From the NCBI GenBank assembly GCA_026770595.1, contig MU633678.1:1-30142 (forward strand): a stretch of 30,142 nt of DNA, in the 5' to 3' direction. Below are positions 7,101 through 29,579 of this stretch, one piece after another (the stretch's first letter is position 1; each line of letters starts with the position of its first letter). Below the pieces are notes generated by a model, which worked only from the letters and a program-made list of their open reading frames with translations, was not told the origin of the DNA and made no database searches. Origin of the DNA: Ochromonadaceae sp. CCMP2298 (lineage: Eukaryota > Sar > Synurophyceae > Ochromonadales > Ochromonadaceae). The translations under genes and the position numbers were made by a program.

Positions 7101-7887
7101 GGCGGGAGCGGGCAGCATGGCGTCGTCGGCACTAGAGACTGCGAAGATGTCCCATGACGCCTCGCTGCTGCTAGCTAACGCTGCTCTCAGACAAGCACCC
7201 GACCTCGTCTCCTTAGCTCTAGCAGGCACCCCTACCCCTACCCCTACCCCTGGGACTGGGACTGGGCCTGACATGATGTCTTCTCTCCTCAGCGTGCTGG
7301 ACGCATTTTCCAAAGATACAGAGACCTCCCTGCACTCCAGGGAGACGGTGATGCAGTGTCTAGCTCTGCTTATGGGCAATAACTGGTCAGTGCTGGGTTT
7401 AAACGAAAAAAAGACCTGCATGGCCATCCTCACGAGGGGGTTGGAGGACAGCAAGCCGGAGGTGCAGCAGCTGGCGCAGGCGGGCATGGTCCTCTACCTG
7501 TCCTTCAAGACGCTGGCTGAATTGGCGTCCATAGCTGCAGTCTACACGAAGAACAGCGACATCCTAGCTACCAGGGAGAAGAAGCTCCGCAAGCAGGGGG
7601 ACGGCACCAAGGTGGGGGGTGGTGTGGACAGCAAGCACCAGAACACCATACTGATGATGTCTTGCCTTATCATCGCCACACCCTACGACCTGCCCACATA
7701 CGTGCCTGCGCTGCTGGGGTCCTTCGTCAGACACGCAGCAGTCAGTGCGCTGAGAGACACGGTGACCCGCACGGTGCAGCTGTTCAAGCGCACGCACACG
7801 GACAGGTGGGAGGAGTTCCGAGAGGCCTTCTCTACCGACCAGCTGGACGAGCTGCAGGGCACGGGGGCCGCACACTACTACTCGTAA
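1136..7887 (+). CDS. PSME4: Proteasome activator PA200/Blm10 (PSME4 family)
   Basis: This is a large HEAT-repeat protein that caps the 20S proteasome and promotes ubiquitin-independent degradation, including of acetylated histones in animals. Proposed exons are 1136-1369, 1522-6456 and 6592-7887, joined in phase 0 by GT-AG introns of 152 and 135 nt. They give 2154 aa, close to yeast Blm10 and longer than human PSME4. The last 80 or so residues match the conserved C-terminal domain (Pfam DUF3437): a YDLPTYVP segment, then FKRTHTDRWEEF, then a STDQLDEL segment. The protein ends Tyr-Tyr-Ser, an HbYX motif that docks into the alpha-ring pockets and opens the gate. Low-complexity Gly/Glu insertions (for example around 5304-5390) account for part of the extra length. 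The start is the first ATG of the exon 1 frame and is the least certain point. Intron 1 is a C/T-rich 12-bp repeat and intron 2 is CA-rich. Confidence 0.92.
1451..1490 (+). repeat. C/T-rich 12-bp tandem repeat in PA200 intron 1
   Basis: The unit cctcccttccca is repeated about three times inside a longer pyrimidine-only stretch (about 1433-1510), directly before the exon 2 acceptor at 1520-1521. It doubles as the polypyrimidine tract of the intron. One strand is almost pure purine. Confidence 0.85.
5317..5375 (+). repeat. G-run cluster (G-quadruplex motif) inside PA200 exon 2
   Basis: Seven or more runs of three to five G, separated by one to four bases, occur between 5331 and 5374, on the coding strand. 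The stretch encodes a Gly/Val/Glu-rich low-complexity insertion in PA200. The G runs mostly read as GGG and GGT/GTG codons, so the frame stays open. Confidence 0.8.
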
Positions 7888-11500: not shown

Positions 11501-13710
11501 TTAGAAGGGGGCTCTGGAAGTCTTGGCAGGTACGCGGGCGCTGTGGGTGCGGTGGGTGCGGTGGACAAAAGAGGAACGAATTGGGTAACGAGTTGGGAAT
11601 GGGGGAAAGGGAGAATACGTGAGGGGCGTGTGAAAGAGCATGCAGCAAGAGTACATTACAGGTCAGGGACAGGGGCACACTATACCGCGTCTCCTACTGC
11701 TTACCCTTGGCTCGACTTGCTGAGTCGCATTCTGTGCATCACTGAGGGGAATTGGGTAACGAATTTGGGATGGAATGAGGGAATACATATAAGTAACGTG
11801 TGGTATGTGGTATGTGGTATGTGGCGTGTAGTATGTGGTATGTGGCGTGTGGAGGTAAAAGGGCAGCGAGAGCACAGCACTGCTGCTCAGCAGACACGAA
11901 GCAGAGCAGAAAACAAGCAAGACAAACAAGAGACTGATTTGAATATTTCTGCATTCTCACCCCTGCTGAGCATGATTGGGTCGTCGGTGATGGCGTCGAT
12001 GGTGGGCCTGTTGATGCCCCTCTCCACGTAGGACATGCCCACCTTCACCGCCTTCCGCTGCTTCACCTCCGACACCTGCACGTCCAGAGTAACTCTATAG
12101 GCCTCCTGCTTCTCGCGATACCTTCGCCACTTCTCCTCCTCGCCCGCCCGGTGCGCATCCGCATGCGCCTTAGCGAAGTCCTTGAAGACCAAGTCAGAGT
12201 CGTGCTGCTGCACAGCCTCCGCCTTCTTCTTCACAATCTGCCGCTCGTTCTCCTTCAGCTGCATGTACGTGCGCTGCCTCCTGTCCACCTCCTTCTTCTG
12301 CTCCTTCTCGATATCCGCGGCCTCCTTTCTCTGCTGCTCCTTCAGCAGCAGCTGCTCGGTGCGGATCTCTGCATCCCGGATAGCCTTGCCTGCCCCCTCT
12401 TGTGCAAATTTCTGCCCATGCTTGCCCATCTGCTCCATGCGCATCTGGTGGTGTTAAATGTGTTCAGGTGTTATTATATGTGTTGTTGTGTTCATGTGTT
12501 GTTATAGGTGTTATTACGACAGGTAGTGGTAGTGGTACCTGGAATGCGTTTTCTCTCTCGATGGCTTCTCTGTCCAGCTTAGCGGCATAGGCCAGCATCA
12601 GCACCTGGTCGTAGGCCGCCTCTGCCTCCTTGGCCACCCCCCTCAGCCTCAGGTTCTCCCTGTTCTCTGCCTTGATCTTCTCCTGTGCCTCGAGCTTTTC
12701 TCTTCTGATACTAGCCACCTTCTGAGCGTCCTGGGCCATCTTCTCTATGTTCAGCTGCTGGTTGCGTGAGTCCATATCAAGCGCCTCCTGCCTCTCCGAG
12801 GCCGCCTTGCGCTGCTTCTCCTCGATCTGCAGTCTTCTGAGGTCTGACTCATCGTGGTCCTTCTGCTTGATTCGGTCGAATTTGGCCTTCTCCTCTCCCT
12901 TATAGCAGTCGATGTCCAACCGCATACGACTCGCATACCCATTCACGTCCAGGGCACCGTCATTGTGCAGACGCCTGGCCTCCTCCATGTGCTCGTCCAG
13001 GCTCTTGCGGAATGCCATCTTCTTAGCACGCGCTGCTGCCTTCTCCTGTCTCTCTGCCTCCTCCGATAGCAGCAGCTGGTACGAGGAAATCATCTTCCAC
13101 TCACTCCCGGAGGGTGGCCGGGCAGGCAAAACTTCAAGCTGTGCAGAGGAGGAGAGGAAGAGGGGTTCGTTGGTGGAGGGCGAGGAGGGCTTGTCGGGGC
13201 TGGGCAGGTGGTTGAAGTCGAGGTGGTGCTTGCCCACGGCTGCCTTCATGTTCAGCGTGCTGCTGATCTCTCGCTCGAGGGAGCTGATGTCATCCTTGCC
13301 GATCTGCACGTGGGAAGTCAGGAACTCTTCCACGAAGAAGGTGATCAGCGCTGAGTGCTTGCTGCAGAGGACAGAGGACAGGCAGGCAGACAGTTAGAGG
13401 ACAGTACGCGAGGAGAGAGGAAAAAAGAAAAAAGGTCAGACGATTGGAAAAATACATGCCTCTCTATTGCCCAGCCCACCCACCTGCCGAACTTCTTCAC
13501 CAGCCTGACGATAAGGATGCAGCCCAGCCTGCCGCGCTCCTCCTTATTCTTCTCTGTGTCCAGGATAGCCTCGAGCTGCCTGCGCTTGCCCGCGTCCATG
13601 CGGGTGCTGGGTCTGTCGGCGTCTCTGTACGGCACTTTGCCCGGACTCAGCATGGGCTGAAATTTTGGCGTGGGGAGCTTAGGAACCCTACCGGTAGGTC
13701 TTCTTTGCAT
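11501..13710 (-). CDS. Coiled-coil protein, probable ciliary/axonemal (family not named)
   Basis: Proposed minus-strand exons are 13710-13484, 13361-12539, 12444-11961, 11741-11705 and 11540-11501, all with GT-AG boundaries, giving about 536 aa. The first three exons are well supported by frame continuity. The last two are short and inferred from splice consensus; without the final splice, translation would stop at 11701 (about 524 aa). An N-terminal segment (residues 60-110, reading LVKKFGSKHSALITFFVEEF across the first junction) resembles a short helical region seen in many protist ciliary proteins. From about residue 150 to 510 the protein is a long Glu/Lys/Arg-rich helix of the trichohyalin-plectin-homology style, as in CFAP45, CFAP53 and MNS1. 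I cannot choose among these. It lies tail to tail with DRC4. The start ATG at 13710 is preferred, but the frame is open upstream to 14214. Confidence 0.65.
11801..11852 (+). repeat. 7-bp microsatellite (TGGTATG)7 in an intron
   Basis: Seven units starting at 11801 and repeating every 7 bp, three with substitutions (TGGCGTG twice, TAGTATG once), lie within the proposed third intron (11742-11960) of the minus-strand coiled-coil gene. Confidence 0.9.
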
Positions 13711-14436: not shown

Positions 14437-15567
14437 TCAGACCGAGGTGGGCAGCGCGGCGGTCTCTCTGCGCACCCGGGGGATGGGCAGATTCTTGACG
14501 AACCCGGGCAGTGACATGCCCATGCCCATGAGCGGGTTGGGCAGGTTGAGAGCGGAGTCCTTCGAGATGGCGTCCAGCATGATCACCTCCTCCTGCGTCA
14601 GGCTCCACTTCAGAGCTGCGCAGTTGTCCTGTGCCTGCTCCTTGGTGCGTGCGCCCACGATGGGCACGGTTCCCTTGGCGATGCACCAGTTGATAGCGAC
14701 TTGCGCCATGCTGACGGGGAAGCCTAGTGAGCCCGTCTTGGCCTCTGCTACTCCCTGGATAGCCTTGTTCAGCTGACGAGCGCGGGGCACAGCCGCAGCC
14801 ACCAGCGCTCCGCGGGGGCCGGGCGGCACATCCCGCATTGTGTATTTACCGGTGAGGATGCCCTGGCCCAGGGGTGAGTAGGCCAGCGTGACGACACCCA
14901 GCTCGTCGGCGGTCTTGATGAGGTCAGAGTACTCAGCGCCGCGGCTCAGTAGAGAGTACTGCACCTGGTTTGAGCCCAGGGGGACGCCACGCTCACCTAG
15001 GAACTTGTGCACTGCGCGCAGCTGTGCGGGGCCGTAGTTGGAGACTCCTACTGATCTGATCCAGCCCTTCTGGTAGCACTTGGCCACCCCGTCCCAGTAG
15101 CCTTCGTTGGCGCCTGGTGCGGGCCAGTGGATCTGGTACAAGCCCAGGCTGTCCACGCCCAGCCTGTCCATGCTGTTGCGGCAGGCGGTCATCACGGCGT
15201 CGGACCCGCGGACCCAGGGCTTGGGTGCAAACTTGGTTCCGATCATGGGCTTGACGTCAGAGAAGGAGCGTCTGAATCGGCCCAGCAGCAGCTCGGACTT
15301 CCCCCCCCCGTAGACCTCCGCTGTGTCGAAGAAGTTCACGCCGCCGCGCTGCAGGCAATAGTTGAAGGTCTCCTGCAGGGCCAGGTCCTGGTCGCTGCTG
15401 TAGCGCCAGTATCTCTGGTCGCCCCAGGCCCAGGTGCCGATGCCCAGCTTCGATATTTTAACGCCGCCATTCAGCACGCGGAAGTTGTTGTCGGTGCCCA
15501 GCAGAGCGCTCTGTGCGACTGCGAGCAGCAGGGCCAGAGCGATGAGGACGGTGCACACGTTCGCCAT
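14437..15567 (-). CDS. Aldo/keto reductase with N-terminal signal peptide
   Basis: This is a 376-aa NADPH-dependent aldo/keto reductase in a single exon. The catalytic tetrad is visible as Asp81 and Tyr86 (FFDTAEVYG), Lys112 (IGTKF) and His147 (YQIHWP). Downstream segments GVSNYG, NQVQYSLLSR, AYSPLGQGILTGKY and GARTKEQAQDN are the usual strand-end and cofactor motifs of the barrel. The overall pattern, including LLLGRF and KFAPKPW, is most like the plant plastoglobule-associated reductase (Arabidopsis At1g06690 type). Residues 1-21 form a hydrophobic signal peptide (VLIALALLLAVAQSA). In an alga with a secondary plastid this could start a bipartite targeting sequence, but no long transit peptide follows, so secretion or the ER are alternatives. 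The substrate is unknown. The gene diverges from the giant ORF across a 740-bp spacer. Confidence 0.95.
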   Translation of the reverse strand: MANVCTVLIALALLLAVAQSALLGTDNNFRVLNGGVKISKLGIGTWAWGDQRYWRYSSDQDLALQETFNYCLQRGGVNFFDTAEVYGGGKSELLLGRFRRSFSDVKPMIGTKFAPKPWVRGSDAVMTACRNSMDRLGVDSLGLYQIHWPAPGANEGYWDGVAKCYQKGWIRSVGVSNYGPAQLRAVHKFLGERGVPLGSNQVQYSLLSRGAEYSDLIKTADELGVVTLAYSPLGQGILTGKYTMRDVPPGPRGALVAAAVPRARQLNKAIQGVAEAKTGSLGFPVSMAQVAINWCIAKGTVPIVGARTKEQAQDNCAALKWSLTQEEVIMLDAISKDSALNLPNPLMGMGMSLPGFVKNLPIPRVRRETAALPTSV

Positions 15568-16307: not shown

Positions 16308-19300
16308 ATGTCGGCGAGGAGTGCAGCCTCTTCAGCAGGGGCCTTGAGCAGCCGCGAGCCATCCTTCAATGAGCTCATGAGCGAGTCCTACCATGAGCCA
16401 AATCTGGAGGAGGACGAGGACGCATCGAGGGAGATGGAGGCCTTCCTGGCCGCGCTGGACAAGAACGACCTGGCAGAGGAGATAAAACGAGAGGTGAAGA
16501 GCAAGCTGCAGGCAGTCACCAGCAAGCTCACCACGCTCTTCAACAAGCAGCGCGATCTGGGACAGGGGGAGGAGGAGGAGGTGGGGGCGATCAGTACGGA
16601 GGCGCTGATGCGCAATCCGGAGGACGAGGACGCTCTGAAGCTGAACCGCAAGCAGGAGCAGCAGAAGATTTTGCTGCTCACCAAGAGGCTCAACGCGCAG
16701 ACCAAAACACTCGAGCTGACTGAGCAGAAGACCCGCGCTACTACTAGGCAGTGGACGGGAGACAAGGAGTTGCACTTGGCGGAGATGGCTCGGAAGGACG
16801 TTGAGGTGCACGATATGGAGGTGCGACTGCATGTGATGGAGAAGAAGGCGCGCACTGCTGAGCAGGTGATTCGAGATAGACATATGGTGAACCAGGGGGA
16901 GGTCGAGGGGGACGGGGGGTTCGAAGTAATGAAGGAGAGGCACGACGCGCTTGTGCTGAATTCGGCGTCGAAGAAGGAAGAGTTAGCTACATTGACGCAG
17001 ACTCTGTGGGACACCAAGCTGGAGCTATCCAGCGCAGGCATGAAGATCGACGCACTCACCAGTAGAGTGGAGGACTTGGTGAAGCGTGGGGACAGTCTGC
17101 ATGACCAGATGGAGAGCATGGAGAAGGAGGAGGGCAACCACGTCAAGCACACGAAAAAGGCCATCGAGGAGAGCAAGAGGGCGCAGCAGGAGCTCGCTAC
17201 TGAGGTGTTGAGAAGCGAGTCCCTGGCTGCACAGCTTCAAAAGCAGCAAGCAGACTTGGGAAAGCGCATGGAGGGGCAGGTGGAGCAGCAGCGGCAGATT
17301 GAGGAGTTGGTAGGGCAGTTGGCGGTGCAGAAGAGAGAGGCGGAAGAGAGAGAGGCGGAGCTCGCAGCAGAGGCGAAGCACCTACGCATTGATCGAGAGA
17401 CGTCACTAAGGAACTGCAAGAAACTCAAAAGCGTGCTGGGGGAGGTAGTCTCCCAGTGCTCAACACTGACCCAGTCGATGCAGGAGTGCGAGACGCAGAT
17501 GCAGGGCAGGCTCAAGAGGGAGGAGAGCAGGGCACGGGAGATGCAGATCGACCTAGCTAACGCGGTCAGCAACCTTGGGGTTAGTGCGCTAAGGAAGGGG
17601 GCGGTGGCTGTGGAGTTTCAGAGCAAGCACCGGGTGGATATGGCGGAGGACGGGGCGAGGAGGGAGGTGGAGGGGCTGCAGAGGCGGGTGCAGGAGCTGG
17701 GCAGGGACCTGGCCAGCAGAGACGAGCAGGAGGAGGTGCGGGTGGCGGAGAAGGAGACAGAGCATGTGGTGGCGGTGGCTGCGGTGGGCAAGGAGCTGGC
17801 TACCGCAAAAGCCGTTATTGATCGACTCAACGGGAAGCTGAGCGGGGTGCAGAAGCAGCAGGGCTCGCAGATGGATTTCGACCTGGGGGAGAAGGAGAAG
17901 GCGGATGAGGCGGATAGGGTGCAGAGGGAGCAAAGGGAGGAGCAGGTGACCGCGATGGGCAAGGAGCTGGCCGCCGCAAAAGCCGTTATTGAGCGAAATG
18001 CAGCGCTGGAGGTGGAGTTGCTCAAGGTGCAAACGCAGAGGGCTGAGGCGGATAGGGTGCTGGGGGAGGAGAGGGAGAGGGCGGGGGAGCAGAGGGAGCA
18101 GATAGCAGCGCTCAAGAGGGAGCTCAGTGACTTACAGCTGAGGGAGAGGGAGAAGGTGAATACTGTCTCCCTGACCCTTGATGGGGACTCTAAGAAGGCG
18201 GACACTGAGAAAGAGAGGGAGAGGGAGAGGGAGAAGGAGAGGGAGAGGGAGAAGGAGTGGGAGAGGGAGAAGGAGAGGGAGAAGGAGAGGGAGAAGGAGA
18301 GGGAGAGGGAGATTGAGAGGGAGAAGGAGAGGGAGAAGGAGAGGGAGAGGGAGGGCGAGAAGGGGAGGGAGAAGGAGAAGGAGAGTAGGGGCGAGATGGC
18401 ACGCAGTATTGAGATTGCAGTATTGAGGGAAGAGCTGGCAGCACAAGCTAAGGAGATAAAGAGGTTGGGCACCGAGAGGCAGCAATCACAGAGGGAGCTG
18501 GAGCTAGCACGGGAGACGGCAGAGAGGGGGGCAGAGGCTGTGGCTGCTCAGAGGAGCGAGGAGGCATCGGAGACGGAGATGAAAGATCAGCAGCCGGACG
18601 AGGTCCCTGCCTCCTATGGGGGGTATCTAAAGGCCAAGGGAGAGGTGGGGGACAAGAGGGAGGAGATGGTAAAGGTGGAGAACGTGGTAAGGAGGGTGGA
18701 GGTAGAGGAGGAGGGGGAGGTGGATGCAGTGACTCTGTTGCTGCGGCAGCTGCAGGGGGAGCTGCTGGACAAGGCTCGAGTGGAGGCCCTGCTCCGGCAC
18801 AGCATCCTGACTGACAACTACTACTTCGACTCTGCTGCTGCTGCATTTACCAACGTGTACCCGGTGGAGGAGCATTTGATGGAGGACCTGGTGGACTCGT
18901 TTCACACACTGGGGCAGGACGTGCTGGTAGTGCTGAGGTCCGTAATGGGCACTGGGGAGACAGAGGACGATCAGGATGGAGAGGAGGGGTATAAGCACGC
19001 TGCCTCCCCAACCTCTGTGGTGGATGGGCTCGAAGCGATGCTGTTGAAATCTGCGCAGACGTTGGTGCTGAGTTTGGAGAAGAGCAAGGAGAGGAACTTC
19101 CAACGATTGAAGGCTGAGCAGAGGGGGGCCATGGATTCTCTCACGAAGGAGACGGATCGTGAGATAGAGCTGGCCAGGGAACAGGCGACTATGTACGTTA
19201 CTGCGGCATTCGCTGGGCAGTTGTTGGAGATGGAGAAGCAGAATGCCGAGGCGGAGGCGCGGCTGGACGATGCGTTGAGAATGCTCAGCACGCTGGAGGA

Positions 19301-22300
19301 GGGGAGTGAGGGAGAGGAGGGGGAATATAGCGAGGGCGAGAGCGAGGGGGGGGAGAAGGATGAGGAGAAGGGGGAGGAGTGGGGCGGGCAGAAGAGCAAG
19401 GGCGAAGAGAAGGGCAAAGAGGAGAAGAAGGAGAAGGAGAAGAAGGCTACGAAAGCAGAGATAGTAGAGACAGCAGCGTCTGCTACAAAAGCATCTGCAG
19501 GGGCTGACGCCTCCCAAGAGCCCACCGTTGCGTCCTTAAGGGACGGCGCTAAGATGAAGAGAAGGCGGAGGGAGCTGAGGCTAGGCTCCATATCCGTCAC
19601 CGCCATTCTGAAACTCAAAAAGAGGGTGGCTGCGGGGCGCCGGAACAGGATCGAGTCGCTGGAGGCAGCAGTGGCCGTCACCACCGCCGTGACTGCCGCC
19701 CACACCACTGACACAGAGTACACAGAGGGGACGGACACCCACACAGACACGGTGGGCTTTGAAGACGACTGGGACGGGGACGAGGGGGGGGCTAGCCCTA
19801 GCTCGGGATTCAACACAGGCGGGACCGTTCGCGTCGGCCATTCCAAGCATGTGTCCCTGGCCCCGCCCACCTCCGCGCTCTCGCCCCAGGACAAGGCCCA
19901 TTCCCAGTCCCCGCCCCAGCCTATAAACCAGTTTCTGAAGGCGGGGTCTCGTCGCTCTATGCACAATGCGTCTGTGGGCAATGGGGGGTCCCCTAAAGCT
20001 GTTCCCAGGTTCGACAACCTCGACACGGGTCAGAGCATACACCAACAGCTGACGCAGGTCCAGCGGGAGGAGCTGTATGGCATGCTGCTGCAGGACCTGG
20101 CTGCCGACCTGTCTAGGCAGGCCATCGCAGAGGCCAAGCAGGCATCGGAGAAGCAGCAGGAGGTGGAGGCGAAGGGCAAGAGGGTAGCACGGGATGTGAT
20201 CCAGCTGCGGGAGGACATCAAGAGTGGACCTCTGAACGCCATCGGGGAGGTGCAGGTGGCGGACTTTGACAGGCTGAGGGACAAGTCTTTCGGACCCGAA
20301 GAATTGGTAACTCTCACCATCCTAGAGCACAGACTAAGATTCGGGGCTGCCAATGATGCGACGGATCTGGGCCTGCTGCTGGGCGAGAGCAGGGGCGTGG
20401 GGGACGAGCTGGCGGCCAAGAAGCGCCGCCAGTACCGCACACTGATTCGCTCTAATGAGGTGCAGAAAGGCTTGCTCGTGAAGGCGGTCAACAGCGCAGT
20501 ACCGATATTGGAGCTGCTGCGGTACAAGCACAGCACAGAGGTTGCCCTCTCGCAGCTCTCCGCCCTCTCTGCGTGGCGCTCGCTGACCTACTACCGAGGA
20601 GGGGGGGTGTTTAGAGACGTGCTGGAGGTGCATCTTCAGGTCATAGACAAATGCCTCGCCCAGGCGGGTGGGTTAAATGCCGCAATGGAGGCGGTGGCTG
20701 CTAACCCATCAGTGGAGCTGGACGTGAGACTGTGGCCAGACGCCTTCCAGGTGAGGGTGCTGACCCTGCTGAGAACGAGACTGTCAGACCAGCTGGAGGC
20801 TGCACGGGACGAGGTGCAGATCGCGCAGCAGGACATCCAGAACCTGCAGAGGGTGGGGGGGGGTGCAACCCCTCATGCCAATCGCAAGGCTATCGTATTA
20901 AGCAGCAATGTAAGCAATGCGATGGATACCGATGCCAACAAGGAAAGATGGAGGAGCAAGGTGGAGGACGCGTCCGAGAAGGTAGCGCTGCTAATGGCAG
21001 AGACGAGCCCAGAGTACGCCAAGCTCAACAACAGCGTCAAGATGATGACTGCTGTGCTCAAAGTGGGATCTAAGGCCAATAAATTCGCAAACGTGTGGCA
21101 CAACAGCGTGAAGGAGAAAAGGGGTGGGGAGGCGCCAGCACCCGCGCACGCACCCACGCAGGAGCTCGCCAGTAGCTGGATCAATGATGATCTCACGCCG
21201 AGCACCGCGACCAAGGCCAAGGGGGCGAAGGGGGCGAAGAGTGCGGCACAGCCCCGCCCCAAGAGCAAGGAGGGCGTACACAGCGATGGCGACGGTGCTC
21301 TGTCGGTGCAGCAGCTGGAGGGACAGCTCACCGCAGCCTTCGTCCCTCCAGAGGACGCACACAGCGTCGTGTCAGGACTCACAGAGCGGCTCGACAAGGG
21401 AGAAGAGGGCAGGAGCGGAACGGCCGCGTTGACAAGGCCGCAGGGAACGCGCACTAGCTTTCTGCGCGAGCGGAGTCGCAAGTCGAGTACTTCTCTGAAG
21501 TTTAACAAGATGGACGCGATGAAGTTCAGGCAGCAGAGGGAGAAGGCGCAGGCAGAGATGGGGATAGGGATAGGGATATCCGCCTCCACCAAGATGGGTA
21601 CAATGGGGATAGGCCTGTCCAAGAATTTCGTGGATGAATTGGTGGGGCATGATGGGGGGCTGGATGGAGGGCTCTCGCAAGACGAGCTGAGCTCTGGCAG
21701 CGAGGTGGGGCCTAGTGCGGACAAGAGCTGGAGCAAGCACCCGGTGCGGGTGCGGCATTGGATGCACAGCTGCGCGGACAAGCTGGTGACTGCTGCTCTG
21801 TTCGCCCAGCCCGGCGCCCTGCAGCAGCTGCAAGCCCTTCTGCAGGCCCTGGCGCTGTGGCAGCAGCAGAGGGCAGGGGAGGCTGTGGCGGTCATCAGGG
21901 CGGCCGAGCAGCTGCCATCAGTAGCACAGGAGCTGCTGGCTGAGCTGGGCAGGGAGGTAACGCACATAGGCGCGGGTAGCAATGTACCTGCGGAATGGCT
22001 GGAGCTGCAGGGAAGGCTGGGGGGCATCAATGACTACATACAGTACGCAGCCGCGCAGCTCGCACAGATGCTGCAGGCACAAGCACATGTGCAGGCACAG
22101 ACACAGGCTAGCACAGGCGTCCCTACCTCGCAGAGCGCCTACCACTATGACCCCGCGTACATGCCTTTGGGAGTGGGGGACGCAGCAGGCATTCCCAACA
22201 CGGCCAACTTCCTAGCCCCGCACCTGCACCCTAATATGCTGCAGCTGCATATGCCCGCGAACCACCCGCACCCGCAGCACCTGCACCCGCACCAGGAACA

Positions 22301-25300
22301 CCCAGCGCACATACACGGTCACGTCCCCACAGCTGGGCCCTACGGGCTCACCGGTCTCACCATGCACCTGCCCCACCAAGTCGAAGCAGCCGCCAAACAC
22401 ACACACCTGCACCAACACCCCAAGTACCACCAGCCGCAGGGTAGGCTCACTCTGCCCCCCCCCGAGCTGCACGTGGCTCACATAGAGCACGCCCACCCCT
22501 CCGCGCACACCAAGACCCCCACTCTGCATGTGCATGTTCCCGACGCAGGTCACCCAGCGGCGGACCCTCTTGCCGATCTGCATCCCTTGGCCCCCATAGC
22601 CCCTCACTCTCCGCTGTCCCTGGGACTGAAAGGTCCCCCCTTCACCGGATACAGCAGCGGCCTGCTGGTGTCCGCCCCGTCCTCCCCTGTGCCCCCCCAA
22701 GCGTATGTGCCCAGGGTCCAGATGTATGACAGCAGCACGCAGACGGCACACGGGTCCATACAGCTGCACGATACACGGGTGCAGGAGGGGCAGGAGGAGG
22801 GACAGGGGCAGGAGGAGGGGAAAGAGGGGGAGGGTCAGGGGGAGGTGTCACTAGACCCGCCTGACAAGAGCACAGTGGTAGGTAAGAAGGGCAAGCACGA
22901 GCATGAGCACACGATCATCACATCGGCTATGGCGGTGCCCATGGAGATGTTCCAGCAAGCGGCGAAGGAGACCCTTGGGGACTCAACTGCCCTCAGAGAA
23001 AGGGGCTTCTCCTTCGCATACTACGACGAAACAGAGTTTGAAGTATTGCCCGGCGTGAGGCTGGCCAGCGCGCACAGGGTGGCAGCCGCTGTGGCCAAGT
23101 ACGCACAAGAGGAGATGTCGATGCCCAGGGAGTTTGGTGCCCAGCCCCCCTCCGTCCTGCTGAAAGCGGGCAACGACGAGGAGATCCACATAGGCAGCTG
23201 GATCATGCGCTCCAACATCCGGTACGTACTGATGGGCAACGGAGTGTCCCTGGGGAAGAGGCTTAAGAAAGTCCCAGTTTACGTCAAGTTGCCTAAGGTG
23301 GAGGGGTGCGAGTGCGTCATTTTCCCCCACGTGTTCCCCGTACGCAATGGGGTGAATCTGGTTACGGGTGAGTCATTTCGCGCAGGCAAGCACCTGGCCC
23401 TTCCCGAAGACGTGCTGCTGCTGCAGTTGGCGAAGGAGGCGCAGCTACCAGACGGTCTGACGCAGGTGGAGCTGTCCCCCATAATCAAGCTGTCCTCCTC
23501 CCTGGACCGGTACCTGCACCACCACCACGTCATCCCTGCAGGCCACCAGCTGGTGCAGGTCACGCACGCTGACCCCATGCTGCTGCCCTCTGGGGTGGAG
23601 GTGAAGAGCGGCGTGAGCCTAGCGCAGGCCCCAGACGACTTCGTTCTCCCTGACAACGTGGTATTAGTCAAGAATGAGGCGCACGACCCTCTACCTAAGT
23701 ACATGCACCGACTAGACGCGGTGAAGAACGAGGAGGATTCTCTCTTGGCAGAGATGAAAATGAACGAGTTCTGCTGCGTGGTGAGGAGGCCAGGGGGCAT
23801 AGACTTCCCCCTAGGCGTGGAGATACTGCAGCGCCCACCGGGCCACCCCCTGCCCCCCTGCATGACGCTTCTATCCCTGAGCGCCTACCCGGATGGGCTG
23901 GTGCTACCCGAGCAGCTGGAGCTGGTGCAGTTGATGCCTCGCTTTGATTTCCCCCTAGGCACTAGACTGAACGCAGACTGGAAGGTGTGGCCCCGCCCCA
24001 GCGGCCTGCGCCTGCCCCCCGGAGTGCAGATCGTGTACCCAGACTCCACCGCGGCTGTGTCCCCTTTGCCCCCCGGTATGTGCGCCTGCGCCATGCCGGA
24101 CTTCCCCTACGGAGTGTCGCTGCCCCCCAAGAGCCAAGCAGTGGAACTGTTCGGCAGCGCGGCGGGCAAGTACCCCCTACCCAAGGGCGCCACTCTGGCT
24201 CCAGGCATTACTGTGCTGGACAGCGAGGAGCTCATACCTCTCGCCACGCAGGGCAGCCGCTCCGAGCGTGCTTTGAACGTGCTGCTGGTATACCGTCTAC
24301 CAGGCACGCCGCTGCCCCCGCTGGTAGAGAGGGGCTCCAAGTCTGACCTGCCGGTGGGCACGCTGCTTGCAGAGCACATGGACATCGTGCGAGTGGCGGT
24401 GAGGTTCGAGTTGCCCCCAGGCGTGCGCATACAGGCAGGCGCCAAGCTGGGACCGCACACGCAGATCGCCCCAGGCACCAACCTGGTAACCCTCTCTGGG
24501 GGTCGGCCTGACGAGGACTACTCCACCTCTCTGGGGGTGCTGGAGTGGCCCTACGGAGTTGCGCTCACGCCCGGCACGGAATTCGTGAAACGGCCGCCTA
24601 TAGGCTATTATCTCCCATTCGGCTATAAGGAGGTGGTGCAGCCTAGAGTGGCACTGGACGAAGGCCCCGCCGCAAGGGTCCCCATTACCCTACCAGCCTA
24701 TGGCATGCTGGTGGAGCTACCCAGGGCTGTGCACTTCTCAACCGCGCAGAACCTAGCCGAGCAGGTTACGGTGGGCATGGAGTCCATCCTTGACCAGAAG
24801 ATGGTGTCACTACCACTATGCATGGTGCTAGCTGCGCGCTCGTCTAGACAAAGCCTGTGGCCTGCAGAGCTCACGCCTGTGCCCAGGTCAGCGCTCAGCG
24901 CGGCGCTGCTCAAGGTGCTGGGGCGCATCAACAGTGAGGCGGATGCGAAGGTCAGGCCCCAGGCAGGCTCTACCGCATTCACGTTCGCGCCCGAGGCAGG
25001 GGTGGCCACCAGCAAGCCCGCCTTGCACGTGGAGGTGGTCTCCATGCAGCCGCACTACGCTCTGCCCCCAGGCTGCGAGATCCAGCCGGGCGTGTATGTG
25101 ATGCGCAAGCCCTTCTGGCTGCACGTGCCCTCGGGCGTGGAGCTTGTGACTAAGAACGTGGATTCTAACGGACACGAGAGGCCCTTCCGCAGGGGCATCA
25201 CGCGCATCCTGCTGCGCCCTGACTACATCGTAAACACCGCAGCAGGCAAGACCACCAGTGCAGGTGCGGGTGTGGATATGGATGCGGGCTTGGCGGCCGG

Positions 25301-28300
25301 GGCGGCGAAGGGCAGCAGGAGCAGTTTCTTCTCTGTCTCAGTTGCGGGAGATCCGGGTCAGAGGGACTGGGAATTGGTGGACTTGGAGCATCCCACCAAG
25401 CTCAGCCCCACCTCCCTGCCCAAGGGATTCGAGCTAGTGCATGTGTCGGAGCTGCTAGCAGGCGTGCGCACATGGGGCCCCTACCTCTCTGGCGTGGAGC
25501 CCGTCGAGGCGCCGCAGGAGGACGGGTGTGTGGTGGAGCTGCCCCCCTACCACTTTATCGTGGAGCGTCCTCTGGCCAAGAAGGGTTCGGGGCTGCCTAG
25601 TGGCTTCGAGCTAGGAGTGGCGAGGGAGTACGCCTCTTGGAAGCAGCCCCACATGGGTCCGCAGCAGGAGCTGATGCACCTGGTGCCCACCTACTTCTTG
25701 CCCATGGGTGTTAACATTATGAACACCTCGGTGCTCAGCAAGAACCAGCTGAACACGGAGGTGGGGTCGGCCCAGACGCGAATACCACAGATCCTGCCTG
25801 GCGAGGTCATATCCATGGGCTTCTCGGTGGTTGCCAAGCCCTTCGGCAGCGCGGCCATGGCCAAGATCCTGTCTGACGACCCCTTCTATGTAGACGAGGC
25901 ACACGCATTTGTCAGAGTGCACGACCCGCAGCAGTTCCGCCTGCCCTCCACTATGGCCCTGGACCGGCACAGCGACTTAGTGGTGGAGAGCGTGTTCGGC
26001 GCAGAGCTGCCCCCCGCCTGGAGGTCCGGCTTCCTCTCCGCCAGTGACGATAATCTGACAAGTACAAAGGGGCTGCTCATCACAGACGTCATAAAGTTTG
26101 TCGGACTGCCACATGGCTTTCCGGAGCCCCGGGAGCGACACAAGCACGGCGCCACGCATGGCAATATCATGAAGCGCGGCTTGCTGAAGCGCGTTGCTCG
26201 CACAGTGAAGGTCATCAACAGCGTGATGTCTCCGAGCACGAGTGGCCACAGGGAGCGGCAGCCGGTGCAGAGAGGGCAGTCGAACCACGCACCAGGTGTG
26301 CGCAACAAGTCCGGATTGCTGGTGGTGCATCCCAGGCTGCTGCAGATCCACGCAAGCTACGGGCTGTTCGGGGAGACTGCCGTCGACAAGGTGCTGACGA
26401 ACATCACTTTGAACCGACTCATGCACGCAGCAGATACCAGGGAGCCCACCAAGAAGTCGCTATTCGTGCGAGTGGAGGGAGAGTATCCCTTCCCAAGGCG
26501 TGCGCAGAAGGGCGGGGCGCTGATGCAGGCGACTGCTCTGGACCTGAGTGTGTTTAGGCTGCAGGACGCGGCGGACGAGCTGGCCGATGAGCTGGAGGAG
26601 AAGAAAGAGCACAATGGGGAGCTGGAGAGGGAGACGGAGCGGCTGACACGGATGTTGGCGCAAAGGGACATGAAGAACGAGGAGCTTGAGAAGAAGCTGT
26701 CCTACGACGAAGATCTAACAATCATCATCCAGCGATTGCAGATAAAGATAAAGCAGAAGGAGGAGGAGTGCAAGGACCTGCTCAGCGGGGACAAAGGCAA
26801 CAGCGGAAGACTGCAGGTGCAGATGAAAGTGCTGACGGCGCAGGTGGCGAGGATGGAGGCGGAGGGGGGCAAGGACGCCCAGAAGGTCGCAGACCAGAGA
26901 GAGGGAGAGGACGAGGGTGGGGAGGTGGACGGTGGGAGCACGGAAGTGGGCGCGGGCTTGGAGCGTAGGCAGTACGATGCATTCGCAGTGGCGCTGATGG
27001 ACCGCTACCAACACCACGCACTGATTGCAGTGGACCAGCTGGTGGAGCTGCACGCCCTCCAAGTGAAGCAGCTGCTATCAGAATTCGAGGCCGTTCTAAG
27101 TACCTGGCCCAGCGCCGCACCCCACGAGGCGGTTGCGGCAGCAGTGCGCTGGGCCAGAGAGCGAGCGAAAGTGGGCGCTGTATGGGATGGTTTCGCGGCT
27201 GCTATGCCCGTGCCCGCACCCGCACCTAACGGTGGGGAATTTTCGCGTGGCGGTCGCGTGGATGACTCAGATGTTGATGCGGAGTACACGGACTTCCTCT
27301 CCAAGCCCTCCTCCCCCCCAGACCCGCGCTCTGCACCGGGGGGCGTGGCTGCGCTCTCGTTGCACGAGGACGATATATCTGTACTCAGCGACGGGGACTC
27401 GCACGTGGGCAATAAGTTTGCCAATTTGGGGGGCGGGTTGTCGCCGCAGCCACCATTCCGACGCGACCTGACCAAAGATGAGTTCGGGCAGCCCATCTCA
27501 GTCACCAGCGACTTCGCCCTTAATGTGAAGGGCCTCTACGCACCCGACCACCAGGAGAAGGAGATGGAGATGGTGAGCCTCTCCTGCAGCACGCCGCACG
27601 GGCCCCTGCGCAGCGGCGCTAGTGTTACCAGTGTGCCTAGTGTCAGCGGCAGTGCTGGCGCCGCCGCCGCTGTCTACCAGCGCATTCCCCTGCCGGACAG
27701 CGTGGATCTGGGCCACACCCTCAATGACCTGTTGGCGGTCAGAAAGCGCACAGCCTCAGGGGCAGGGCGGCGGGGCAGCAGGGGGGGCAGCAGGGGCGGC
27801 AGCCCGGGGGGCTTGGGGGAGGTGCTGGGTCTGGGCGCGGACATCGCAACGCGTGAGGCCCCAGCCCCGCTGACGCCACTAAGACCCCTGGACCTGCACG
27901 ACGGGGGCGTGGCGGGGGTGGCGGGAGACCTCATGATGGCAGCGGGTGCGGCGGAGGGCGGCGGTCAGGCTCTGCGCATCACTGCGGAGATCACTGGCGA
28001 GCAGCTGCTGGCCTTCCTACACAGTGACGAGAACCGGCAGCTGCTGCGCCTGAGCGTGGAGGGCCAGGCTACCACTCTGGGTGCGGCCACTCACCACGAG
28101 CTGCGGGCAGTGCTGCTTAAGCTGAAGGCCGGTCTGCTGGAGCAGGTGCCCCAAATCATCGAATTCAGCGCCACGGAGGCCGTTGCCGCCGCTTCCGCCG
28201 CGAGGAGGGGCAAGAAGCGGGCCGCAGCCGCTATGGAGTGGAGGGAGCAGATACCGCCCGCGGATCTGCGTCTGGGTGCTGTGGCGGGTGTGGCTGAGGA

Positions 28301-29579
28301 GCTGGGGCAGGGCGCTGCGCACTACGTCCGTTACGCTGTCAACTCTCTGCTGCTCTTCTCGGAGGTTGGTTTGCAGCAGGCGGACCTGGTGGTGGATGCA
28401 CTGGCATTGCAGCTGGCTGCGCAGAAGCGTCGATCGGAGATGCTGGGCCTTCTGCTGCTGGAGTCAAAGCGGAAGGGGGGTGACTTCGCGCAGGAAAAGA
28501 GCGCCACCGACTCTTTGCGCGAGAGGGTGTGCGAGCTGGAGGGGCGCCTGGAGCACCTACATGGGCAGCACATAGCCCCAGCTGTGTCCGTGCTATCTCT
28601 CCTGGTGGGACGTCTGGGAGACATTGCGCAAGTAGAGAAGCAACTCAAGTTTGCCGCACTGGCTTACAAGAAACGCGCCTACGAGGCGGAGGAGCGCATA
28701 AGCGCGCACAAGAAGGAGTACCACTACTCCACACTACGCTACGAGAACAAGACCGGGATCGTCCTGGAGGCCGACACCTCGGCCTTTACCGCCCCGCTCG
28801 GCGAGGGGGGGGCTCCTGCTTCCGAACCCTGGGGAACAATAAGGGCGGCCTCGTCTCCGTCTCTCGGGATTGAGAGGGTTGAGGGGTTGGTAGCTGACAG
28901 CACCTCCCACTCGCAGCTGACTCGGCGGGTATCCAATTCTGCCATGTCTGCCTTGAATCAGTCGCCCCTGATGAGCGCTAACAATCAGAAGGCGCTGCTG
29001 CACTTCGCCCACGCGCAGCGGATGAAGTATCGGCAGTGCCTGTATCGCGCGAATAGTGTGAAGCAGGAGGAGCACGAGCTGTTGGCCTCAGTAATGGCGC
29101 ACATGGAAGCCTACCAACGCACAGCTCAGGCGCTGCTACCGCCCAAGCTGCTGGAGCAGGTGCTGCGCAGTAGTGTGCGCAGCTACCAGGAACTGAACTC
29201 GGGCCAGCGGCACACTTCCTCCGTGTACCACCACACCAACCGACAGAGACCCGGGGTGCACAGCGCAGGGCTCATCGGACAGGAGGAAAGGGACGACACG
29301 CTCTCCGTGGGGGAGAGCCTTGCGGACACTCAGTGGTCGGCCCTGTCCCCCGCATCCACCAGGAGCCGCGCCACCACCACCAGTGCCTCCCGCCTTAAGC
29401 CGCTGCGGTCTGGGCCGAGTGGGCAGCAGAGCCTCATTGACGCCTCGAATTCGCTCACCAGCAGCGGAACCAAGTTCGGTGCCGCGGGCTCCATGCCGCT
29501 GGCGCCAGCCCAGAGTCACCTGCTGCTGCGCGGCAAGACTGCAATCACCTCGAAGAAGCTGCCGCGGGTGCACTTCTAG
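16308..29579 (+). CDS. Giant 4423-aa coiled-coil / LP-x-G-V repeat protein
   Basis: One uninterrupted frame encodes 4423 aa. I do not recognise the family. In order: residues 30-630, heptad-rich coiled coil; 634-694, Glu/Arg/Lys-only tract predicted as a charged single helix; 700-990, more helix; 1000-1050, acidic/Lys-rich linker; about 1245-1515 and 1812-1925, Ala/Leu-rich helical regions; 1965-2098, His/Pro-rich stretch; 2247-3270, at least 20 motifs of the form (L/F/W)P-x-G-(V/T/F)-x-(L/I/V); 3412-3528, second coiled coil; 3885-4285, helical C-terminal region. Serine- and Gly-rich linkers separate these. No signal peptide or membrane segment is seen. The size and coiled coils suggest a cytoskeletal or ciliary scaffold; that is inference. 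The start is the first ATG of the frame (acAAGATGtcg context). TGTAAA at 29620-29625 follows the stop. An intron that keeps frame inside the low-complexity parts cannot be excluded. Confidence 0.85.
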   Translation: MSARSAASSAGALSSREPSFNELMSESYHEPNLEEDEDASREMEAFLAALDKNDLAEEIKREVKSKLQAVTSKLTTLFNKQRDLGQGEEEEVGAISTEALMRNPEDEDALKLNRKQEQQKILLLTKRLNAQTKTLELTEQKTRATTRQWTGDKELHLAEMARKDVEVHDMEVRLHVMEKKARTAEQVIRDRHMVNQGEVEGDGGFEVMKERHDALVLNSASKKEELATLTQTLWDTKLELSSAGMKIDALTSRVEDLVKRGDSLHDQMESMEKEEGNHVKHTKKAIEESKRAQQELATEVLRSESLAAQLQKQQADLGKRMEGQVEQQRQIEELVGQLAVQKREAEEREAELAAEAKHLRIDRETSLRNCKKLKSVLGEVVSQCSTLTQSMQECETQMQGRLKREESRAREMQIDLANAVSNLGVSALRKGAVAVEFQSKHRVDMAEDGARREVEGLQRRVQELGRDLASRDEQEEVRVAEKETEHVVAVAAVGKELATAKAVIDRLNGKLSGVQKQQGSQMDFDLGEKEKADEADRVQREQREEQVTAMGKELAAAKAVIERNAALEVELLKVQTQRAEADRVLGEERERAGEQREQIAALKRELSDLQLREREKVNTVSLTLDGDSKKADTEKEREREREKEREREKEWEREKEREKEREKEREREIEREKEREKEREREGEKGREKEKESRGEMARSIEIAVLREELAAQAKEIKRLGTERQQSQRELELARETAERGAEAVAAQRSEEASETEMKDQQPDEVPASYGGYLKAKGEVGDKREEMVKVENVVRRVEVEEEGEVDAVTLLLRQLQGELLDKARVEALLRHSILTDNYYFDSAAAAFTNVYPVEEHLMEDLVDSFHTLGQDVLVVLRSVMGTGETEDDQDGEEGYKHAASPTSVVDGLEAMLLKSAQTLVLSLEKSKERNFQRLKAEQRGAMDSLTKETDREIELAREQATMYVTAAFAGQLLEMEKQNAEAEARLDDALRMLSTLEEGSEGEEGEYSEGESEGGEKDEEKGEEWGGQKSKGEEKGKEEKKEKEKKATKAEIVETAASATKASAGADASQEPTVASLRDGAKMKRRRRELRLGSISVTAILKLKKRVAAGRRNRIESLEAAVAVTTAVTAAHTTDTEYTEGTDTHTDTVGFEDDWDGDEGGASPSSGFNTGGTVRVGHSKHVSLAPPTSALSPQDKAHSQSPPQPINQFLKAGSRRSMHNASVGNGGSPKAVPRFDNLDTGQSIHQQLTQVQREELYGMLLQDLAADLSRQAIAEAKQASEKQQEVEAKGKRVARDVIQLREDIKSGPLNAIGEVQVADFDRLRDKSFGPEELVTLTILEHRLRFGAANDATDLGLLLGESRGVGDELAAKKRRQYRTLIRSNEVQKGLLVKAVNSAVPILELLRYKHSTEVALSQLSALSAWRSLTYYRGGGVFRDVLEVHLQVIDKCLAQAGGLNAAMEAVAANPSVELDVRLWPDAFQVRVLTLLRTRLSDQLEAARDEVQIAQQDIQNLQRVGGGATPHANRKAIVLSSNVSNAMDTDANKERWRSKVEDASEKVALLMAETSPEYAKLNNSVKMMTAVLKVGSKANKFANVWHNSVKEKRGGEAPAPAHAPTQELASSWINDDLTPSTATKAKGAKGAKSAAQPRPKSKEGVHSDGDGALSVQQLEGQLTAAFVPPEDAHSVVSGLTERLDKGEEGRSGTAALTRPQGTRTSFLRERSRKSSTSLKFNKMDAMKFRQQREKAQAEMGIGIGISASTKMGTMGIGLSKNFVDELVGHDGGLDGGLSQDELSSGSEVGPSADKSWSKHPVRVRHWMHSCADKLVTAALFAQPGALQQLQALLQALALWQQQRAGEAVAVIRAAEQLPSVAQELLAELGREVTHIGAGSNVPAEWLELQGRLGGINDYIQYAAAQLAQMLQAQAHVQAQTQASTGVPTSQSAYHYDPAYMPLGVGDAAGIPNTANFLAPHLHPNMLQLHMPANHPHPQHLHPHQEHPAHIHGHVPTAGPYGLTGLTMHLPHQVEAAAKHTHLHQHPKYHQPQGRLTLPPPELHVAHIEHAHPSAHTKTPTLHVHVPDAGHPAADPLADLHPLAPIAPHSPLSLGLKGPPFTGYSSGLLVSAPSSPVPPQAYVPRVQMYDSSTQTAHGSIQLHDTRVQEGQEEGQGQEEGKEGEGQGEVSLDPPDKSTVVGKKGKHEHEHTIITSAMAVPMEMFQQAAKETLGDSTALRERGFSFAYYDETEFEVLPGVRLASAHRVAAAVAKYAQEEMSMPREFGAQPPSVLLKAGNDEEIHIGSWIMRSNIRYVLMGNGVSLGKRLKKVPVYVKLPKVEGCECVIFPHVFPVRNGVNLVTGESFRAGKHLALPEDVLLLQLAKEAQLPDGLTQVELSPIIKLSSSLDRYLHHHHVIPAGHQLVQVTHADPMLLPSGVEVKSGVSLAQAPDDFVLPDNVVLVKNEAHDPLPKYMHRLDAVKNEEDSLLAEMKMNEFCCVVRRPGGIDFPLGVEILQRPPGHPLPPCMTLLSLSAYPDGLVLPEQLELVQLMPRFDFPLGTRLNADWKVWPRPSGLRLPPGVQIVYPDSTAAVSPLPPGMCACAMPDFPYGVSLPPKSQAVELFGSAAGKYPLPKGATLAPGITVLDSEELIPLATQGSRSERALNVLLVYRLPGTPLPPLVERGSKSDLPVGTLLAEHMDIVRVAVRFELPPGVRIQAGAKLGPHTQIAPGTNLVTLSGGRPDEDYSTSLGVLEWPYGVALTPGTEFVKRPPIGYYLPFGYKEVVQPRVALDEGPAARVPITLPAYGMLVELPRAVHFSTAQNLAEQVTVGMESILDQKMVSLPLCMVLAARSSRQSLWPAELTPVPRSALSAALLKVLGRINSEADAKVRPQAGSTAFTFAPEAGVATSKPALHVEVVSMQPHYALPPGCEIQPGVYVMRKPFWLHVPSGVELVTKNVDSNGHERPFRRGITRILLRPDYIVNTAAGKTTSAGAGVDMDAGLAAGAAKGSRSSFFSVSVAGDPGQRDWELVDLEHPTKLSPTSLPKGFELVHVSELLAGVRTWGPYLSGVEPVEAPQEDGCVVELPPYHFIVERPLAKKGSGLPSGFELGVAREYASWKQPHMGPQQELMHLVPTYFLPMGVNIMNTSVLSKNQLNTEVGSAQTRIPQILPGEVISMGFSVVAKPFGSAAMAKILSDDPFYVDEAHAFVRVHDPQQFRLPSTMALDRHSDLVVESVFGAELPPAWRSGFLSASDDNLTSTKGLLITDVIKFVGLPHGFPEPRERHKHGATHGNIMKRGLLKRVARTVKVINSVMSPSTSGHRERQPVQRGQSNHAPGVRNKSGLLVVHPRLLQIHASYGLFGETAVDKVLTNITLNRLMHAADTREPTKKSLFVRVEGEYPFPRRAQKGGALMQATALDLSVFRLQDAADELADELEEKKEHNGELERETERLTRMLAQRDMKNEELEKKLSYDEDLTIIIQRLQIKIKQKEEECKDLLSGDKGNSGRLQVQMKVLTAQVARMEAEGGKDAQKVADQREGEDEGGEVDGGSTEVGAGLERRQYDAFAVALMDRYQHHALIAVDQLVELHALQVKQLLSEFEAVLSTWPSAAPHEAVAAAVRWARERAKVGAVWDGFAAAMPVPAPAPNGGEFSRGGRVDDSDVDAEYTDFLSKPSSPPDPRSAPGGVAALSLHEDDISVLSDGDSHVGNKFANLGGGLSPQPPFRRDLTKDEFGQPISVTSDFALNVKGLYAPDHQEKEMEMVSLSCSTPHGPLRSGASVTSVPSVSGSAGAAAAVYQRIPLPDSVDLGHTLNDLLAVRKRTASGAGRRGSRGGSRGGSPGGLGEVLGLGADIATREAPAPLTPLRPLDLHDGGVAGVAGDLMMAAGAAEGGGQALRITAEITGEQLLAFLHSDENRQLLRLSVEGQATTLGAATHHELRAVLLKLKAGLLEQVPQIIEFSATEAVAAASAARRGKKRAAAAMEWREQIPPADLRLGAVAGVAEELGQGAAHYVRYAVNSLLLFSEVGLQQADLVVDALALQLAAQKRRSEMLGLLLLESKRKGGDFAQEKSATDSLRERVCELEGRLEHLHGQHIAPAVSVLSLLVGRLGDIAQVEKQLKFAALAYKKRAYEAEERISAHKKEYHYSTLRYENKTGIVLEADTSAFTAPLGEGGAPASEPWGTIRAASSPSLGIERVEGLVADSTSHSQLTRRVSNSAMSALNQSPLMSANNQKALLHFAHAQRMKYRQCLYRANSVKQEEHELLASVMAHMEAYQRTAQALLPPKLLEQVLRSSVRSYQELNSGQRHTSSVYHHTNRQRPGVHSAGLIGQEERDDTLSVGESLADTQWSALSPASTRSRATTTSASRLKPLRSGPSGQQSLIDASNSLTSSGTKFGAAGSMPLAPAQSHLLLRGKTAITSKKLPRVHF
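17781..17990 (+). repeat. 57-codon internal duplication in the coiled coil
   Basis: The segment beginning at 17781 (A-V-GKELATAKAVIDR) recurs 171 nt later at 17952 (A-M-GKELAAAKAVIER), with near-identical DNA over about 45 nt including an identical 'gcaaaagccgttattga'. A shorter echo, gcggatagggtgc, occurs at 17910-17922 and 18048-18060. The DNA identity indicates a fairly recent in-frame duplication. Confidence 0.8.
18207..18390 (+). repeat. Purine-only GAGAGG/GAGAAG repeat encoding an E/R/K helix
   Basis: About 180 nt of almost pure purine built from 6-bp units GAGAGG and GAGAAG encode residues 634-694 of the giant protein. The protein alternates Glu with Lys or Arg, the composition of stable single alpha helices that act as rigid spacers. 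The DNA could also form a triplex and is prone to slippage. Confidence 0.85.
22200..22600 (+). other. His/Pro-rich segment of the giant protein
   Basis: Residues about 1965-2098 contain dozens of histidines in patterns such as HPHPQHLHPHQEHPAHIHGH and HTHLHQHPKYH. It separates the helical N-terminal half from the LP-x-G-V array. Metal binding or pH-dependent assembly is conceivable, but nothing in the sequence decides. Confidence 0.8.
23046..26120 (+). repeat. LP-x-G-V protein repeat array (about 20 units)
   Basis: Residues 2247-3270 of the giant protein carry at least 20 degenerate copies of (L/F/W)P-x-G-(V/T/F/M)-x-(L/I/V). Examples are LPPGVQIV at residue 2569, LPPGVRIQAG at 2702, LPPGCEIQPG at 2919, and FPLGVEIL, WPYGVALTPG, VPSGVELV, LPKGFELV and LPMGVNI. 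Many are followed after 5-20 residues by a second PG or KP turn and a hydrophobic strand. Spacing is irregular, from about 18 to over 50 residues. The pattern suggests short beta strands linked by Pro-Gly turns. DNA identity between units is low, so the array is old. Confidence 0.8.

Follow-up and report, generated by a model that had tools for sequence, protein, structure and literature searches.

What kind of protein is encoded by the very long open frame at this locus, and what might such a protein do in the cell? The window, that is the whole stretch of DNA analysed here, is the entire contig C42 (30,142 bases) of an assembly of 11.2 Mb in 724 contigs. Positions 16308-29579 of its forward strand form a single stop-free frame that begins with an ATG and encodes 4423 amino acids (the window protein, P0001); the upstream stop-to-stop limit of the frame lies at 16266, and the ATG at 16308 sits 42 bases inside it. 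The original prediction of a 4423-residue protein in one frame is thereby borne out. The frame belongs to a conserved, unannotated family of giant proteins carrying an array that is undescribed in the libraries searched. Its parts are as follows, with the basis for each given last.

16308..29579, forward strand: giant protein, single open frame of 4423 amino acids (frame, and alignment with P0003 at both ends)
16308..18587, forward strand: charged region at the N terminus, probably a coiled coil, about residues 1-760 (composition and 3.5-residue power)
18207..18383, forward strand: run rich in E, K and R, residues 634-692, on a DNA tandem repeat (repeat listing and member scan)
20193..20807, forward strand: conserved, probably helical domain, residues 1296-1500 (kept in 8 of 11 members)
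22140..22562, forward strand: His-rich stretch, about residues 1945-2085 (limits set by eye)
22725..22745, forward strand: YDSSTQT, putative LC8-type TQT anchor with Asp at -4, 89 residues ahead of the array (motif rules, PMC6607443)
23004..26138, forward strand: LPxGV array, the conserved core of the family, residues 2233-3277 (motif counts, conservation, periodicity)
24411..24485, forward strand: strongly conserved hexapeptide-like core LPPGVRIQAGAKLGPHTQIAPGTNL, residues 2702-2726 (conserved columns, Hexapep matches, hexapeptide runs)
26505..26867, forward strand: C-terminal coiled-coil segment, about residues 3400-3520 (conserved columns and coiled-coil chains in the PDB)
28485..29207, forward strand: C-terminal, probably helical region, residues 4060-4300 (conservation and composition scan)
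29487..29528, forward strand: tail motif GSMPLAPAQSHLLL (G-x-[LM]-P in 11 of 11 members)

The open frame and its host

It is likely that 16308-29579 represents one gene, because P0003, a relative of 4650 amino acids in one frame, aligns at both ends of the window protein (29% over the first 200 residues and 26% over the last 23, at full coverage), and because G-x-[LM]-P recurs near the C terminus of all 11 members. The P0003 alignment is thin at window protein residues 1001-1200, with 10% coverage. GC3 is uniform along the frame (0.735-0.799 over ten pieces), and between the window copy and a second copy in the same genome (C216) third codon positions are the most divergent in every one of the 11 segments compared. 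There is no support for a minus-strand gene, as six of the 12 overlapping minus-strand frames of at least 150 amino acids were scanned and gave no Pfam match at E 0.01.

The long single exon had originally been taken as unusual, a view that has to be given up: six of the 24 dynein heavy chain matches in this genome (C337, C108, C55, C145, C158 and C154) lie in open frames of 3678-4574 amino acids, with others of the 24 in shorter frames, so that an intronless gene of 13 kb is ordinary here. For the same reason, that long open frames are common in the genome, a viral or prokaryotic origin deduced from the intronless giant frame was rejected. Two scans of viral contigs and one of prokaryote genomes found no relatives; the first viral-contig scan gave zero pattern matches, and the other two scans gave 56 and 50 matching stretches, none of them confirmed. 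A bacterial-code tRNA scan found none, and a scan for bacterial-type promoters upstream was uninformative.

The dynein heavy chains, together with a GAS/DRC4-type gene within the window (E 1.1e-26), make it very probable that the organism makes flagella. The genome also holds 21 matches to light-harvesting proteins (PF00504), and the two that were read carry motifs in the style of ELKHGRVxML and ELKNGRLAM, which we take to be typical of red-lineage plastids, for example those of stramenopiles. Given the light-harvesting proteins, the dyneins and the GAS/DRC4-type gene, the host looks like a flagellated photosynthetic eukaryote, probably an ochrophyte.

A family of giant proteins and a second copy

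With the window protein's array region as query, a database search returned four relatives (P0002-P0005); with the array of P0004 as query it returned eight rows, namely P0004, P0002 and P0003 together with five new proteins (P0006-P0010). The nine database relatives, P0002-P0010, range from 1988 to 4650 amino acids in length. The genome itself holds two loci, the window copy and C216, the latter a 3962-residue open frame that enters from a contig edge with its N terminus missing and is 65% identical to the window protein over the array. In a tree of the array region, C216 is the sister of the window protein (100/99), with P0002 and P0009 forming the next pair (99/98). GC3 is 0.77 and 0.79 in the two copies, and their codon usage correlates at r 0.97. 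Since tree sisterhood, base composition and codon usage agree, the two copies are read as the probable product of a lineage-specific duplication; that the assembly contains a second species is less likely. Both are slow in the array core, where 81% of amino acids are identical (residues 2441-2780) and 33% of the identical residues differ in codon. The presence of two copies in one genome means that a division of labour between them can be examined.

Conservation was compared by windows between the window protein and C216 and P0002-P0005. Over the array windows (residues 2201-3200), C216 is 54-81% identical, P0002 52-74% and P0003-P0005 27-51%. P0003 reaches 35-51% in its five windows there and 12-33% in all others, whereas P0004 and P0005 mostly reach 7-31% outside the array, with two higher values (43% and 35%) at less than 25% coverage. 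The maxima outside the array are 56% for C216 (residues 801-1000) and 48% for P0002. On these alignments the array is the best-conserved part of the protein on average, though some outside windows match its weaker parts. The predicted parts keep a conserved order, running from the N-terminal coiled coil through the helical domain, the [FY]DxxTQT (LC8-type) anchor, the array and a coiled coil to the GSMP tail.

The LPxGV array

The array was scored with the pattern [LFWIMVY]P.[GNDY][VTILCAMF].[LIVFAM], which was composed after the sequence had been seen. Residues 2215-3290 of the window protein contain 19 such motifs and the remainder of the chain none; when this segment was shuffled 1000 times, the pattern turned up 0.95 times on average and never more than 6 times. 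The original count of at least 20 was therefore slightly generous under this pattern, while the array itself is real. In the ten proteins of alignment A4 (the window protein and P0002-P0010), the aligned array region holds 14-22 motifs each and the remainder 0-2; shuffles of these regions (300 each) gave about one motif on average and at most 4-6. An origin of the array in a recent DNA-level repeat was considered and rejected, as Tandem Repeats Finder shows none in 23004-26138.

Among the many distances between motifs, 15, 18 and 21 residues are found repeatedly. Column autocorrelation in the eleven-row alignment is highest at a lag of 6 both for Gly (r 0.173) and for hydrophobic residues (r 0.131), and none of 2000 column shuffles came up to either value at any of the 40 lags; Pro has its peaks at lags 15 and 21, which 41 and 104 of 2000 shuffles equalled. 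Single sequences show the lag-6 signal less strongly, with z 3.5 (Gly) and z 2.6 (hydrophobic) in the window protein and a hydrophobic z below 2 in P0004, P0006, P0007 and P0010, and a lag-6 Gly signal is also present in the C-terminal part of the window protein outside the array (z 2.9). The six-residue rhythm is thus real on average across the alignment, yet there is no clean tandem repeat. High Pro and Gly content in the array (14-23% together per 150 residues), with low heptad power (0.2-1.9, against up to 5.6 N-terminally), suggests beta structure.

Scanned against Pfam-A with a limit of E 1, the window protein matched zero families, NCBIfam gave no match for its array, and profile searches of the PDB with the array gave best E-values of 0.43 (two array sequences) and 0.29 (five), both implausible; solved axonemal proteins in the PDB searches gave no match either. 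A profile search for the array in other proteins covered 7988 candidates of about 590-1880 amino acids, a range that could not reach the known members (at least 1988 amino acids), and found none below E 0.01, with no positive control. Because the Pfam, NCBIfam, PDB and profile searches gave none, the array is undescribed in these libraries, apart from sub-threshold matches of its core to Hexapep (PF00132). The original statement that it fits no named repeat family stands to this extent.

Among the proteins of A4, at E up to 0.1, Hexapep matches two of ten, both under the 27-bit cut-off and on one short core, and so does not tie the array strongly to any Pfam repeat family. They are P0010 (residues 1500-1527, E 1.1e-4, 22.2 bits), whose match starts opposite residue 2705 of the window protein, and P0009 (residues 484-504, E 0.039, 14.1 bits), whose match lies in its own loose hexapeptide run, 482-506. 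The core, RFELPxGVxxxxxxxLGxxxQxAPGTxL, is among the best-conserved stretches and can be read as four loose hexapeptides over about 25 residues. By a relaxed rule of our own, nine of ten members have a loose run of four to five hexapeptides at the core, which 0-10 of 300 shuffles equalled in each case; P0004, P0005 and P0007 have strict runs of three at this place, equalled in 2-3 of 300. In P0003 and P0008 the number of loose hexapeptides is also somewhat above shuffles, 12 and 7 of 300 of which reach it.

Could the array then be a left-handed beta-helix of the hexapeptide (LbH) type, derived from acyltransferases? Such proteins follow a tandem rule, [LIV]-[GAED]-x2-[STAV]-x (PMC8786284, in part). 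Both Hexapep matches on the same core, the Gly and hydrophobic six-residue periodicity and the loose core runs would fit such a helix. Strict hexapeptides, however, show no notable excess over shuffles in any of the ten members (the closest being P0008, 18 against 16.1), number 16 against 20.0 in the array of the window protein, and form longest runs of only 2-3; the LPxGV motifs themselves stand at uneven distances, frequently of 15, 18 or 21 residues, and do not follow a continuous period of six. An array-wide hexapeptide helix was therefore rejected despite the real periodicity, and an LbH origin of the array in general appears quite improbable. The window array resembles LbH proteins in its short core and rhythm, and differs from them in its length of about 1000 residues and in the coiled coils before and after it.

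The same motifs bear on a further possibility, namely that the protein belongs to the membrane skeleton or pellicle and resembles alveolins or articulins, whose short Pro- and Val-rich repeats polymerise to form a layer beneath the plasma membrane. These proteins, too, place short hydrophobic, Pro-containing repeats beside low-complexity and charged parts. Alveolins have a charged Val-Pro motif, whereas the motif here is LPxGV with Gly, and the array makes up only a quarter of the chain; as noted above, Pfam offered no family whatever for the window protein. We consider this kinship very doubtful.

Parts before and after the array

The originally proposed layout of coiled coil, charged single helix, His-rich hinge, array and coiled coil holds in part: the array is shared by the family, and two other elements were seen in one or a few members. 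The charged run at residues 634-692 has a counterpart in none of the other members scanned (1 of 11; C216, P0006, P0007 and P0009 stop short of the region), and the DNA beneath it is a purine tandem repeat of 12/18 bp at 18207-18385 (Tandem Repeats Finder). Its match to Protein Red (E 5.5e-6) was set aside as compositional. The His-rich stretch is found in three of 11 members (the window protein, C216 and P0002, with at most 24, 16 and 33 His per 100 residues); the other eight have maxima of 6-9, and among these P0006, P0007 and P0009 begin too near the array to tell. Three conserved features had been left unnamed, namely the helical domain, the [FY]DxxTQT anchor and the tail motif.

The N-terminal region is low in Pro and Gly and high in charge, with raised 3.5-residue power in some 150-residue windows. 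The helical domain that follows bears the signatures IGEVxxxxFDRLRxKxFG and GGVxxDVLxVHxxV and is kept in every member that reaches the region; it has no PDB match at E up to 10, and a weak match to Gly_transf_sug (E 0.0098) falls inside it in one of ten members (P0005, residues 803-868). After the array, the profile matches coiled-coil chains in the PDB with a best E of 0.0055, a generic likeness, as is that of P0003 to SMC models (E 2e-13, far below the cut-off); a weak Fez1 match (E 0.004) lies on the coiled coil of P0002.

Ahead of the array, [FY]Dxx[TS]QT is present in seven of 11 members (the window protein, C216, P0002, P0003, P0004, P0006 and P0008), against a shuffled expectation of 0.0025 per protein (200 shuffles of each of six members), the pattern having been picked after the sites had been seen. 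In the six members with a measured array start, it lies 30-173 residues upstream. The exact site is missing from P0005, P0007, P0009 and P0010. Of these, P0007 and P0009 say little, as their sequences start 42 and 3 residues ahead of the array. A WTQT is found in P0005 at 86 residues upstream of the array, and P0010 shows ETQT twice, 236-258 residues upstream. P0004 additionally carries FDNSSQT far upstream, within the coiled coil. The TQT triplet is the anchor for LC8, a hub with more than 100 partners in which position -4 is often aspartate (PMC6607443, in part). The genome contains a partial Dynein_light (PF01221) match over 37 of 86 positions (E 8.3e-13). LC8 binding at the putative anchor, in a linker whose composition suggests disorder, is thus a good lead rather than a result, because many TQT peptides fail to bind (the same source, in part). 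In sequence, coiled coils and a putative TQT anchor with Asp at -4 in a linker are shared with known LC8-binding coiled-coil scaffolds, from which this family differs in having a single conserved site in most members and a large Pro-Gly array after it.

Possible functions

It is quite probable that the window protein is a structural scaffold of some kind. As a tentative reading, which we hold to fall a little short of an even chance, it would be soluble and cytoplasmic, and would act as a giant scaffold within the microtubule or flagellar cytoskeleton; a flagellar location is a guess. The long coiled coils at both ends would pair two chains, an LC8 dimer recruited at the TQT site just before the array would clamp them side by side, and the central, Pro-Gly-punctuated stretch of about 1000 residues may serve as a docking platform or stiff rod, probably of beta structure throughout, which would be the part under the tightest constraint. 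The cytoskeletal reading is favoured by the retention of the family as long single frames, by the higher average conservation of the array and its slow change in both copies, by the TQT site with its LC8-like features, by the partial Dynein_light match, and by the dyneins and GAS/DRC4-type gene of a very probably flagellated host. Against it stand the four members that lack the exact TQT site, the outside windows that equal weaker parts of the array in conservation, the high hydropathy peak of P0004 and the missing match to any solved axonemal protein. The proximity of the GAS/DRC4-type gene means little for function, the host being a eukaryote. The original idea of a large modular scaffold remains reasonable in that its array is real and conserved; its single exon is no sign of anything unusual, and its layout is kept in part. 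By description, the protein is also reminiscent of FAZ10, a giant cytoskeletal protein of protists, in its giant size and proposed cytoskeletal role (PMC5358337, in part).

Long coiled coils and low-complexity linkers are general features, LC8 serves its many partners widely, and the window protein shows no flagella-specific feature. These points would suit a scaffolding or tethering role elsewhere in the cell, at the Golgi, the nuclear envelope, an endomembrane or the cell cortex, unrelated to flagella and with the array as a docking rod. Against a membrane-anchored version of such a tether, a hydropathy scan of six members (peaks 1.36-1.84) gives no clear anchor in the window protein, where a membrane segment is unlikely (peak 1.59); the peak of P0004 (1.84) is high enough to allow one. 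A place in another compartment seems to us rather unlikely.

Returning to a cytoskeletal scaffold, one could go further and propose that the array represents a novel repeat fold, in which Pro-Gly units build an all-beta rod of about 1000 residues, in a lineage-specific and so far unnamed scaffold of the flagellar apparatus; this combination is unlikely. In the open-access literature no paper naming such a protein was recognised, and the available part of a paper on oomycete flagellar genes mentions no giant protein (PMC3471859).

A conserved protein of up to 4650 amino acids whose core array has no family model or structural relative in the searched libraries constitutes an annotation gap. If the array is a new fold, it would add a repeat class. 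To our knowledge, parts of the basal-body and flagellar-root structures of algal flagellates are poorly known, and if the protein resides at basal bodies or flagellar roots, it would offer a molecular handle on them.

Neighbouring genes and minor observations

Other genes share the window. A PSME4/Blm10 proteasome activator gene lies at 1276-7887 in at least two frames (PF16507 and PF11919 matches), and an aldo/keto reductase at 14437-15567 on the minus strand (PF00248, E 3.4e-54). Also on the minus strand, 11887-13393 encodes in at least two frames what by eye is a highly charged helical protein, with no Pfam match. Near the contig end, 60-178 is an AT-rich tandem repeat of nearly palindromic units.

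The introns of the GAS/DRC4-type gene (9412-9490, 9593-9695, 10055-10150 and 10285-10378, limits by eye) consist of related repeats of 26-45 nucleotides. The pattern TGCATTAAACCCCYYYYTCTATACTAT, with up to three mismatches, occurs 16 times in the genome, these introns included, against 0 for a reversed control; an introner-like element or an intronic minisatellite is the reading we offer. Downstream of the second copy, on the minus strand of C216, a frame of 434 amino acids resembles, by eye, ankyrin-type repeats (LKVLKWWSQAMKGRCPW...). Finally, the dynein heavy chain rows C219:1462-2782 and C189:9501-10821 have identical scores and frame lengths on opposite strands, and perhaps represent a duplicated stretch in the assembly.
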